A stretch of DNA of 64,000 nucleotides from Ectocarpus siliculosus (Eukaryota > Sar > Phaeophyceae > Ectocarpales > Ectocarpaceae): contig FN648905.1 of NCBI GenBank assembly GCA_000310025.1, positions 614,317-678,316 on the forward strand, read 5' to 3'. The notes below the pieces were generated by a model, which saw nothing but the letters and a program-made list of their open reading frames with translations, ran no database searches and had not been told where the DNA came from. Each line of letters opens with the position of its first letter. The stretch's first letter is position 1. A program made the position numbers and the translations under genes. Shown here one piece after another: positions 18,301-24,300 of the stretch.

Positions 18301-21300
18301 CTTTCGGGATGTATGTCATGTGTGGTGTCCGGGCGCCCGACCCCCCCGCTTTTCGTCGGGATCGAAAGGGAGACGCACAACAGCAGAAAGGGTGCTTTGT
18401 CTCGTGGCATGCGGCGACTCGTTTGCTTGGTTGTCGCGTGTGGCGAGGGTGTGAACAGGACAATGTGGCCAGGACTGTCAATATTCCGGGCTCTGATGGG
18501 TCGAGGCATCGTAGATCTCGGAGACGCGACTTTCTGCCCTCTCTAGCGCTGCGCGACATCCGTTACGAGAGCGCGCGGCGCAGCGAGAGGGCCCTCGGAA
18601 CGCAGGGCTATCGGTAGATGCAAGTCTCGCGGCGAGGCGAGGTCCAGGGGCGGAGAAACGTCAATAAAACAGCTCCAGACCAACGAGAACATCAGGATTG
18701 GAAATGCTGCAAGCTCGTGTACCCTCAGCCCGCAGGAACTCCGTGTGTCTGTGCTGGAGTATCTATTATTTGTTTTGGGAGCAGGCGACGGTAATCGCGA
18801 AAACAAATTGCGAACACATACTTGTAGCCCGGTTGGGGGAAATTTAAATTTCGAAAAGTTACCACGAATGACACAACGAATTCGACCCATTCAGTGAGTA
18901 TTGCCGTCCTTCGGACGTTCGTATTCGACGACATCACAGCATCACCGATAAGATCTTGGCAATTGCGCACGTACGATACTTGTGATTATTGCTTTCTGCG
19001 ACAGGTACGAACCGTCCAGGTTGACAGGCAGGTGCGGTAGCGGAAAGTAGTTGGGTACATTTGTTTGTCTCAAGATATCATGTTATTATATTCAGCTCAA
19101 TATGACGCTGAAAGAAAGGGTGGTGGGTGAAGACTGTGCACAGCACATCAAGGGCACGAAGCTGGAAAAGACGTTCACCTGTATATGGTACTGTAGTAGT
19201 GTAGAGGCTACAGCAGCACCTTCAAACCACAGTGTTAAGGAGGACCCGATTCGCAGGGTATCCGTCGATTGACTTTTACCAGAATCGGTACACCTTCGCA
19301 TATGGCGTCAGCGGCTGGATACTGGTTCGAGTCTCCTTGGGTGCACGTTTTTTCTCCTGACTTGGACATTTTCCCATGGACACCATGTGTGTCAGTCCTG
19401 AGAACACCTCTTGGAATCGATCCTATAAAGAACCTTGTGACACTTCCATCGAATTACCCGTCCTGGCCACAAGAGGTTCCCAGTTGAGGGTAAATTCTGT
19501 GGGTGGAGAGTGTTAAGGAGGACCCGATTCGCAGGGTATCCGTCGATTGACTTTTACCAGAATCGGTACACCTTCGCAACAGCGTGTCGTTGGCAGTATT
19601 ACGGAAGAAGACAAAAACAAACTTGCAGTTCACGGTGTGAACGCAATGCATGTGATGTTCGAAAACTCAAAGCTCTAGCGAAATTGCTTTTGATAAAAAG
19701 CTGTGGCGTACAACAACAAACAAACGATACAAAAACAAACCCTGTCCAAATTCCTTCCCTCGGCAGCAGACCTACCTGTACTTTTGCAACCTTGCCTCAG
19801 GCTATGTATTATGCAGACCAACAAAGAATTCCACAAAAAGGTCAGGCTTTCACTCTCTATACCGACTAACTTCTGACTAACTCCCAGGAAATATTCCACT
19901 AAATGCTTGTGGTATCCACGAAATGTGCAAACAGTCGTGGGCCCGGTTTAGCGGTTCCCTGTTTAGCGGGATGCCCTGAATAGCGGTTATAAAATTTCGT
20001 GACACGGCTGCACGCCGGTTTAGCGGTTATAACCGCTAAACCGGTCGTGCCCTCAATAGCGGTTATTGGACATGTTTGCAGCCACCAATAGCGACTATCG
20101 GTTCAATTTTTGCGGGGACCTGCATGTAGTGCGCGCTTCGCTTGCACATTCTCACAGCACAGCGACTTGGTCAGCCTGTTAGCTGGTCGATGCTCATAAT
20201 AAAAAGGACACATCGAGAGACACACACACATACACCAAACGACGCAGGGTCAGAGAAGAATCGCCGAAAAATAGCTGAAGAATCGACGATGAGAGTGATG
20301 GTGGTGAAAGCAAGGAGGATGATGGTGAAAACACTCCAAGACGAACCCGAGTGCAAGGTGGCAGTTACCTACCGTGTCTGCCCTTACTCCGGGGAATAGC
20401 TTTTACCTGCCCCATGCCGCCCCCTCACGAGGTCCCAGTTAATGACATATAGAAGTGTTTTGTGTTTTCAACCGCGCTGAGACTGACGACGACGTCTTTT
20501 CATTGGTCAGCCAGTTAGCGCGGTCGATGCTAATAATAAAGACACACACCATGCGGCGCGTGGATGGAGAACTGTGCAAGCTTCTAGATGCGGCACGAGT
20601 CCAAGCGGCGCGCATGATTGTAAAGGTTGCTGTGGTGGCCGCATACACGGCATGTGTGTGGGGAGGTGGAGGTTCCGGATGAGCACGAGATGCAACCGGC
20701 GTACAATCAAGAAGACGCAGAGTTCCCCTCACTTCTCAACTTCGCCCAAGCGCCAAGAGGTGTTAGGTGGCTTTCTAGCACCAGGCGCGAGGAAAGAAAC
20801 AACTCGCGCTGCAGCTACACGACAACAGCCCCACACGCGGCTCTACGTTGGCTAGAATCTCGAGGTTTTGAAGCTTCTTGACCAGAAGGTAGCGCACGCA
20901 GAAATAGTGCGCACAGGAAGAGATCGCCGAAGCTTTGCGTAAAAGGGCGCGAATGACGAGGTTGTTGAAAGTTGTCCGGTATGTACATGGAGGGGGGCCT
21001 AACCCCTCCGACGACGACACGACGACCTAGAGCTAGGGCTAGATACCACCGCACAATTGGACGGAGCGAAGGGCAGGGGGGTGATGTCGCCGCCACCACA
21101 CTCGGAGGTATCATCGGATTTTGGCCAGCGTGGAGAGCGCGGAGTCGTGTGGCGTAAGCGAAGCAGCACACTATTTCGCAAGGAAAAAATGGCGTTCCTC
21201 GCAGCGCACACCGCTCCTCCAGCGCGCAAGGCAGATACCAGAGAGATTGCTTTGGGTGAAGAATGATCGATACGCAACACATGGCAGAAATGAGATGCTC

Positions 21301-24300
21301 AAGCACGTGGTTGATTGCCATTGCGTTGTCACAAGTTTGTCTCATCACCTACTTCACTTCGTTAGAGACGCGAACGATTTTCCAGTCATGATGAGGGGCA
21401 TACAGTCCGGAAGGGAGAATGATCTTCGTGCTTCGGCGAATTTAAATGCATCATTAATGAATGTGCTAGCGGCGTTGTCCTTCATTGGCTCGTTACTTCT
21501 TCGTCTGCACCTTCGTATGACTGCTGCAATGATACGCATGGCCCTATCAATATCAACTCTCCGCGCTGTTATTGTAGGGCAAAAATGGGCTTTTTCCCGG
21601 TTTAGCGGTTCATGACCGCTATTAAGCCTCCTGGTTTAGCGGATAATGACCGCTAAAGTGGTTTAGCGGCGATGCCCTGAATAGCGGTTATAAAAATTCG
21701 TGACACTATGGACCGCTAAACCGGGTCCACGACTGTAGTGGTATGACGACTAAAACTTTATCTATTTGTGTATATCTACCGTTCACCTGTGAAAGACAGG
21801 CGGGTATTATGTACTTGTAGTGGCACACCGCACAACAACGTGCGTAAACTCTCTACCGTTCACCTGTATACGGTAGAGTGTATAGGCTACGGCAGCATCT
21901 ACTGTACAGCGTCGTTGACAGTATTACACAGAAGACAAACAAACTTGCAGTTTTCCGTGAGATGTGCATGCATGTTTGAGAACTTAAAGCGCACCCGTGT
22001 CGTGACGTATTTCTTGATTATTAATGTATCGGGAAATATGTACATATAAGATTGGGTCATTTTTGGTGTTTCGGCATTTCTTTCTCTCGCGACAGTGAGT
22101 CTTTTCTCGCGCTTCCTTCTCAATGGCACGCAGAAGGCTCGTCGGCACATTAACGCTCATGCGCGGAGCTCGGCAGGCCTCCGTGGGGTGTGTGGTTGAC
22201 GGTCAAAGTCGCAAAAACTGGCTCTATATCCCGGGGACACGTTCCGCGCAGACAAAGCCTGGCGAACCACTTCTTCTGAAACCCATCAATAACGACAGAA
22301 AGGAAATGGCCCGCCCGCACGTTTCGAACAGGTTTGTCTCTGCCAACGACAACTAACCGGATAATAAACCTAATCATACGCCCCCACAATGAATCCCTCT
22401 TGCTTCTTCAAAGCTGGCGCCATCACCTCGGTTGGTGGTATCTCGGGCTGAAAACCAGGTGTTGTCCGGTTTTAGCAGCCTCTTATGCATATGTAGCGAG
22501 CAAGAATATAATTTAGAAATTTCGCCGCTTGCCTGATGTTCATCTCTATCATTCATCATTCGCTGATTCAACCTCGCCGTGACTCTTCGTGTTATCGCAC
22601 GCGATGTCCAACAACACCTACCTATCTTTGCTCTTCTACACTTCGCAGCGGGCCCAGCGAGACGCTGCTCGCTGCTGTAGACAAGTCTGAGCGCATGCAC
22701 CCAGAGTGTGGATCAAGTTTGTGTGCATTTGTTGTGTTGTTTCGATATTGTATCGTCTGCCCGATGTTGGAAATTCCTTATTGACTTGAAAATGTATGCA
22801 TTAACTAAATCCGGCTTTGTGTTTTTTGCGTTGTTTCTCTCACATTAGCTCTATAGTCCACAAAAATGGGGAGCCCGTGATCGCAAAACCCGGCACATAC
22901 GACGCCGCGGGGAAACAAAACAAGAATAGAGTACAAACCACTCGGAAAAAGAAAACAAAATGATAGAAAGAAAAGAACAGCTACCGCACCGACCAGTCGA
23001 GAAAAGGGGCCCTACGAAACCGATCAAAATAAAGGCAAAAATAATAGGGAAAAAGGAGCGCTTCCCACACCGCCTAAAAAAAATCAAAGGGTACCGTACC
23101 AGCATCAGGCACTACCCACCAGGGCATGGGGGTAATGGGGGCAACAGAAAAAAGAGGCGGCAGATGGGCAGACAGCCATTTATATAAAAGCAAAGGCAAC
23201 GGCAAAAGGGAGATCAAGGTACCTAACAAGGCAGAGTAGGCAGGGAGGACATGAAAAAATGAAACACAGCACTGAGGCCGAAGGCAATACAAAGGACATA
23301 CAGGAGTATAGCATACAGCAGCAGGGAGGGGAACAGGGTGCAACATCAGCCGGGTACATAGTTCGCCACAAGTGCTGCCTCGGCCGCCCTACTCGCTTCT
23401 ACATCAGCAGCACCCGGTCGCCGTTTCTTCCCCCCCACCGCCGCTTCCCCGACTCTCTTTCTTTTCGGTCCCGAGATGGCCGTACTCCCTGCTTCTGCTT
23501 CCCTCGCGCGCTGGCGCTTCGCGGACGCTTCCGCCTCCTGTCTGTGCCATTTCCTCATGAACCATGCCACCCCGTCCTCGACCTTGTTGTACCACGCCTC
23601 CGGGTCCTTGGCGCTCTCTTTCCATTTCCCCCCTTCCTTTTCGTCTCCCATGTTGAACGCCACGAGGTCCTCTCCTAGACGAGACACCCAGTCGCTCTCC
23701 TGCCCGCCCCGGTATCCCAAGCCCCCCGCCATCGCTCCTACCAGCATCCGCTTGGGGAGGCGGTTGTCCTCCATGCGCATAACGAAGCCCGCGAAACACA
23801 GTCTCCGTTTGCGCACGGTGGCCTCGATGGTTTCCTCGCAGCCGGCCTGGATGAGGGCCTGGGCATAGGACAGGGGGCGGTCTGAGCGTTTCCGCTTGCT
23901 CCAGCCGATGCACCGTGTCAGGAACTGGCGGTGGGTCCCATTGAGCTTCGTGTAGTGCTCCGCTGTTAGGCTCCACGAGGCGCACCCGTATAGGAGAGTC
24001 TCCACCACTTCAGCCTGGAGTAGCCGGATCTTGAGCTGACGGTCGGCCCGTCGCCTGTCGTACATCGAAGCACTGTTCCGGCGGTGTATAGGTCCCCGGT
24101 TTGACAGCTGAACGGCTGTGTAGGTTCTGTAATTTCAATCTGTATCCACAAGTCGCTTCCTCTGTGTACCCCCACCGCTCACCACGCCGTCGGCTTTCTG
24201 TGTAGATTTTTCTGAACTACTCAAAGGTTTGCGTCTCTGTGTACCCCTACCGCTCCGGTCTCAGGGCGTGTACTAACGTCCATTTTCTACGTCCATTTTC

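Follow-up and report, generated by a model that had tools for sequence, protein, structure and literature searches.

A 346-bp TRIM and its probable mobilisation by a NADAR-domain Ty3/Gypsy element with a largely dissimilar LTR

The window, that is the whole stretch of 64,000 nucleotides analysed here, carries a small LTR element at positions 19233–19578, and a diverged paralogue of its flanks lies at 21790–21990. The features are:

19229..19232, + strand: left copy of the target site duplication (TSD), ACAG, from the sequence and from comparison of the flanks with fetched copies
19233..19300, + strand: 5' LTR, 68 bp, TGTTAAGG...CCTTCGCA, the same as 19511–19578; fetched copies have the same ends
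19301..19510, + strand: interior, 210 bp, non-coding
19303..19320, + strand: primer binding site (PBS) TGGCGTCAGCGGCTGGAT, which pairs, one mismatch aside, with 18 nt at the 3' end of CCA-tailed tRNA-Ser(CGA)
19501..19510, + strand: polypurine tract GGGTGGAGAG, with one T, abutting the 3' LTR
19511..19578, + strand: 3' LTR, 68 bp
19579..19582, + strand: right copy of the TSD, ACAG
21790..21990, + strand: diverged paralogue of the TRIM flanks, by alignment, with the element absent and a single ACAG at 21906–21909

The element is built as LTR (68 bp), interior (210 bp) and LTR (68 bp), 346 bp in total, with LTR ends TG...CA. The two LTRs are the same at 68/68 nt, and AG is common to both upstream sides, so that the raw repeat measures 70 nt. 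Elsewhere in the window no other copy of its LTR or interior was found, nor of the LTR of element X described below. TRIMs are recognised by short direct LTRs with TG...CA ends, a length below 1 kb, a non-coding interior, a TSD of 4–6 bp, a PBS after the 5' LTR, a purine tract before the 3' LTR and a dispersed family. All of these were found, the last in the assembly-wide search; the fetched set holds 40 complete units, and an exact 4-bp TSD flanks 27 of them, as ACAG does the copy in the window. The assignment of 19233–19578 as a TRIM is well supported. The earlier note had proposed this identity together with matching 68-bp TG...CA terminal repeats, an ACAG duplication, a tRNA-primer-like site and a purine tract; each of these holds at the positions given above, and the primer site can now be refined to tRNA-Ser(CGA).

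Downstream of the TRIM primer site stand a T-arm-like GGTTCGARTC and a T6 run, as might be expected of a retrozyme, another ribozyme-bearing element or a small retroelement driven by Pol III. We find such an origin hardly credible. An Rfam search of 18900–22500 returned two sub-threshold matches only, neither of them on the TRIM, and a retrozyme was rejected since no hammerhead ribozyme match appeared in this interval up to E=5. A Helenus-type element, with tRNA-like sequence in the LTR, was likewise rejected, as no tRNA gene was found in the window and no Rfam tRNA match in 18900–22500. An A-box-like stretch, if there is one, is spaced by about 20 nt, and apart from the T-arm-like motif and the T6 run nothing was seen in support of a Pol III promoter in the TRIM, which was also discarded.

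The flanks of the TRIM, joined with one ACAG removed, align across the junction to 21790–21990 with a score of 160 (maximum 47 in 200 shuffles), and the score falls to 97 when the TRIM is kept in. An empty-site paralogue with a single ACAG had been placed at about 21.85–21.99 kb; it is confirmed and its extent widened, and it does not align without a gap at this point, the TRIM being absent from it. Since the identity to the flanks is 76% over 95 bp and 78% over 50 bp, the paralogue is an old duplicate and not an allele. Between the two diverged paralogues sits a unit bounded by a 25-bp inverted repeat (96%; 19931–19955 and 21712–21736), which encloses about 1.8 kb, carries subterminal repeats of the GCGGTTA type and looks like a DNA transposon.

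The assembly searched comprises 189 Mb in 492 contigs. The EsV-1-7 cysteine repeat is a brown-algal marker, and at least 150 matches to it were found here (best 150 of 880 candidates) and 0 in 14 control genomes, which places the assembly among the brown algae. A passage on EsV-1-7 in Ectocarpus is present in the available part of PMC12477816. A 35-nt pattern from the TRIM LTR, allowing up to 3 mismatches, matched 245 places assembly-wide (100 of them listed), and the reversed pattern matched none, which refutes the notion that there are no other copies. A search with the TRIM, among the best 40 of 248 candidates, gave 45 matches, and 41 of these span most or all of the element at 95–100% identity. 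At the window copy and 39 fetched loci (n=40) the TSD is an exact 4 bp in 29, 3 bp in two and absent in nine. Among the 13 complete units lacking an exact TSD, nine sit in tandem, extended or composite structures, and L013, L016, L023 and L038 are simple-looking complete units without a 4-bp TSD. Tandems and partial tandems (LTR-interior-LTR-interior-LTR, LTR-LTR) were observed at L042, L034, L022 and L010.

The two LTRs of the 40 complete units differ at 0 positions in 16 units, 1 in 15, 2 in four, 3 in one, 4 in one and 5 in three. The recent spread suggested by the earlier note is borne out by these figures, which point to recent or current activity of the family. Pairs of the same sequence are common (16/40), and over an LTR of 68 bp the window insertion itself can be dated only roughly in this way.

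The commonest primer site of the family, TGGCGTCAGCGGCAGGAT, is perfectly complementary to the final 18 nt of CCA-tailed tRNA-Ser(CGA), and stops just before A58 (position numbering is our own). The 3'-end pattern of this tRNA occurs at three places in the assembly, all of which ARAGORN calls as tRNA-Ser(CGA). The PBS 18-mer has 49 exact matches and 22 with one mismatch, the control none. A second, short form of the TRIM primer site consists of TGGCGTCAGC followed by TGGAT or AGGAT, and matches the tRNA over 10 nt. We compared 58 distinct primer-site-plus-interior sequences, a non-random sample in which some loci were fetched for the long form and duplicate copies were merged; 30 carry the long form and 28 the short form. 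The GGC triplet, present or absent, is found with A as well as with T, so that each of the four combinations is represented among them. The window copy (GGC with T) has the rarest, found once in 58, and combines features of the long and the short form found in other copies. The idea that the two forms mark subfamilies was not supported: they show no clear tie to the interior sequence, and the difference between and within forms was reached by 587 of 1000 permutations of the 58 sequences. Nearest neighbours agree in form in 35 of 58 cases, a value reached by 85 of 1000 permutations. We read the two forms as the probable outcome of repeated overwriting of the site by copied tRNA.

A candidate mobiliser, element X, was traced via 20 loci fetched for the PBS 18-mer away from known TRIMs. 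The sequence preceding the 18-mer is X in nine of these, a TRIM-type LTR end in six and neither in five. LTR similarity did not lead to X: the 68-bp search gave only near-identical LTRs among the best 40 of 352 candidates. X begins with TGTTAAGGAG wherever its start is in view, and its LTRs form 13 same-strand pairs among the best 40 of 191 candidates, spaced 13.5–14.4 kb in nine pairs and 3.2, 4.7, 10.5 and 11.2 kb in the others. X is mostly about 13.7 kb long with LTRs of 297 bp, the LTR being taken to end in CTCCTTTAAA. An exact 4-bp TSD flanks nine of the ten resolvable pairs, C219 being the pair without one; of the other three, two could not be resolved at the 5' flank, and the third, C27, has an inverted TRIM at its end. 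In one copy the Pol frame is 1755 aa, or 1772 aa open-ended, with the following Pfam matches:

residues 59–210: NADAR (PF08719), E 3.2e-44
residues 729–887: RVT_1, E 4e-25
residues 981–1085: RT_RNaseH, E 1e-27
residues 1499–1556: Integrase_H2C2, E 1.5e-13
residues 1573–1672: rve, E 4e-7, at 30.6 bits just under the Pfam cut-off of 32.6

X is of the Ty3/Gypsy type, having LTRs and a Pol in which reverse transcriptase (RT), RNase H and integrase follow the order typical of Gypsy; at the start of Pol it has a NADAR domain. A 375-aa frame behind Pol gave no Pfam match, and so none to a chromodomain, and a 1504-aa frame in the Gag position upstream of Pol, in another copy of X, gave no Pfam match either. 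No RT match among the best 150 of 519 or the best 150 of 1041 candidates lies inside the 13 X pair intervals; the RT of X scores 89 bits, below the range of the matches listed in the best 150 of 1041.

The LTRs of the TRIM and X align only over their first 10 nt, starting with TGTTAAGGAG, and the purine tracts are alike and in the same place before the 3' LTR (GGGTGGGCTAG in X, GGGTGGAGAG in the TRIM). The native X primer site, TGGCGTCAGCTGGCATTACACGG, has 22 exact matches and three more with 1–3 mismatches, one of them a TRIM/X junction, and has its first 13 nt in common with the short TRIM form. The predicted primer of both the TRIM and X is tRNA-Ser(CGA). A third family uses the 18-nt tRNA-Ser site as well: L092 (G000:C6:560950-561770) and L097 (G000:C24:3093330-3094150), both among the five loci with neither X nor a TRIM-type LTR end before the 18-mer, are 87% identical over 262 nt and end directly at it, so that the primer is not enough on its own to identify X as the partner. 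At L090, L093 and L106 the tRNA-Ser primer site, which has one mismatch at L106, follows unrelated sequence.

We link the TRIM to X because of hybrid insertions with spanning duplications. TRIM sequence is joined to an X LTR at 15 of 24 loci with an X LTR, which is not a rate since the loci were picked by LTR or primer-site matches; one further locus (L094) is ambiguous. Twelve composites were tested for one 4-bp duplication across the TRIM and X parts, and ten have it (GAGC, GTAG, TCGG, CATG, GAGG, CCTG, CGCA, AGGG, GAGC and GGGG, of which GGGG falls within a run of G), where about 0.05 would be expected by chance. In the two without, L104 and L078, the left end adjoins TRIM or X sequence, and it may not be the outer end of the composite. 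For composites beyond these 12, one outer end was read each. One shared duplication around TRIM and X parts is what is expected of one reverse transcription followed by one integration.

The junctions lie either at the primer site or at, or close to, a CCTT that the two LTR ends have in common. At L026 and L080 the TRIM LTR runs into the X primer site and interior. At L060 (G000:C456:17000-26500) 4.3 kb of X interior, 96% identical to L107, and an X LTR interrupt the 3' LTR of a TRIM, and the whole lies within one GAGG duplication. C9 and C476 are X copies with an X-TRIM-X 5' end and differing junctions, L063 (duplication CTAT) is a TRIM that carries an additional primer site and LTR end, and the head-to-head forms L056 and L058 are centred on the primer-site palindrome. 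A TRIM LTR also adjoins a native X primer site at G000:C33:808274-808390, and two same-strand TRIM LTR matches lie 12.4 kb apart at G000:C17:4608897 and 4621264, which might be a long element.

Composites might also arise after integration, through nesting of one insertion in another or ectopic recombination, or be errors of the assembly; they would then be silent on joint reverse transcription. Some insertions are indeed merely adjacent, as at L069, where a TRIM and an X LTR lie apart and are not joined. We nevertheless consider such an origin very unlikely for the composites as a whole, given the single 4-bp duplication spanning both parts in 10/12, junctions at the primer site or CCTT that differ between loci, and head-to-head forms centred on the primer-site palindrome.

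A further set of products continues from an X LTR and the 18-nt site into unexpected sequence: sense X interior from far downstream at L098 and L091, inverted X interior at L087 and a second piece of LTR end at L089. Beyond the X LTR and 18-nt site at L094 and L096 there was no match to the available X interior pieces. At L100 (G000:C340:315570-316390) the X LTR and primer site lead into reverse-complemented tRNA-Ser(CGA) and then into X interior. The tRNA stretch comprises the T arm, variable arm and anticodon, and matches the tRNA at 57 of 58 nt including TGG; the sole mismatch is A for T at position 58. The retroviral plus-strand strong stop has been ascribed to m1A58, with longer products if the base is passed, in the accessible text of PMC13191261. 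From this one locus we infer that the mismatch marks a modified A58. The products at L087, L089, L091, L098 and L100 look like misplaced second strand transfers.

Together, the joint products strongly indicate mobilisation of the TRIM by X. The full-length mobilising LTR family predicted by the earlier note is very probably X, although LTR similarity does not reveal it. We put the probability that the TRIM is a non-autonomous element mobilised by the NADAR-domain Ty3/Gypsy element X at roughly 0.85, and no higher because the third family uses the 18-nt primer site too. Another LTR element might instead mobilise both, the TRIM and X being clients that share its particles. This is consistent with the existence of the third family, with TRIM and X LTRs that are unlike beyond 10 nt, and with RT searches that scored the best 150 of 519 and of 1041 candidates. 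It is improbable given the long open Pol frame in the copy of X that was read, the 4-bp duplications of X itself, its TRIM-like LTR start, and the fact that the hybrids seen are with X, among loci picked by TRIM or X LTR or primer-site matches.

If X is the mobiliser, TRIM RNA would be packaged together with X RNA, primed by tRNA-Ser(CGA) and copied by the X reverse transcriptase. The X integrase would recognise the common TGTTAAGGAG end and insert the TRIM with a 4-bp duplication. Plus-strand synthesis would extend 18 nt into the primer tRNA and in most cases halt before A58, and this tRNA copy may overwrite the shorter primer site of the RNA. Faulty strand transfers at the tRNA copy would give rise to TRIM/X hybrids, head-to-head dimers and tandem copies. 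The odds are, in our judgement, slightly in favour of this fuller picture, in which the TRIM acts as satellite to a NADAR Gypsy, the two having almost no LTR sequence in common. Repeated overwriting of its primer site by reverse-transcribed tRNA would be the reason that the TRIM pairs with the shared tRNA-Ser primer over 18 nt, against about 10 nt in native X. The genome would then keep a legible record of strand transfers between satellite and helper that went wrong, among them a readthrough in which the only error marks a modified A58.

The interest lies in the route to the partner and in the tRNA fossil. Most TRIMs are without a known mobiliser, and the present case suggests one reason, namely that the partner may differ through the whole LTR save the integrase end. 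Hybrids with one spanning target duplication point to a partner without experiment, and other genomes could be searched for them. The hybrid and tRNA loci would also record the primer tRNA, its usual stop before A58 and strand-transfer mistakes, in a lineage only distantly related to plants, animals and fungi.

TRIMs, pairs of partner elements and template switching are already known kinds of phenomena (PMC4717578, PMC11302176, PMC1950507; these and the papers below are cited from the accessible parts of their texts). Among the matches listed in open-licence text, up to 20 per search and supplements aside, we found no paper on the TRIM/X pair, and the pair may be in a repeat library under another name. 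The available part of PMC12477816 lacks the words TRIMs and miniature LTR elements, and gives 26 'LTR/Unknown' families. The same source describes a NADAR-bearing Gypsy lineage in Ectocarpus, e.g. Gypsy-12_Ec32. X resembles this lineage as a Gypsy with NADAR at the start of Pol, and is set beside it by description only; the lineage has a C-terminal chromodomain, whereas X gave no Pfam match for one.

As in plant TRIMs, the element is a small non-coding LTR-interior-LTR unit with a TSD of 4–6 bp and tandem or inverted arrays, and larger putative mobilisers are known for some plant subfamilies (PMC4717578). Rice OsajRetroS10 and OsajLTRA10 are an example of plant TRIMs with putative autonomous partners, and in the plant survey 11 of 289 TRIM subfamilies had larger relatives, recognised via LTR identity of 79–98% (PMC4717578). 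In contrast, the X LTR has 10 nt in common with the TRIM, and X was found via the primer site and hybrids. Cassandra, Helenus and Ajax TRIMs also contain small-RNA-related sequence, animal Helenus has 4-bp duplications and Cassandra tandem forms; their tRNA- or 5S-like sequence lies within the LTR, whereas in the present TRIM it is the primer site that matches a tRNA (PMC7215508, PMC10886601). The autonomous/non-autonomous pair Cereba and Quinta of wheat was likewise argued from a common primer site, LTR ends and purine tract (PMC11302176), but Quinta is long and encodes Gag, whereas the client here is 346 bp and the hybrids add direct evidence. Finally, the composites resemble template-switch complexes in Triticeae, which also have one flanking duplication and were read as abnormal template switching (PMC1950507); those complexes join similar elements, whereas the TRIM/X hybrids join unlike LTRs, also head to head.
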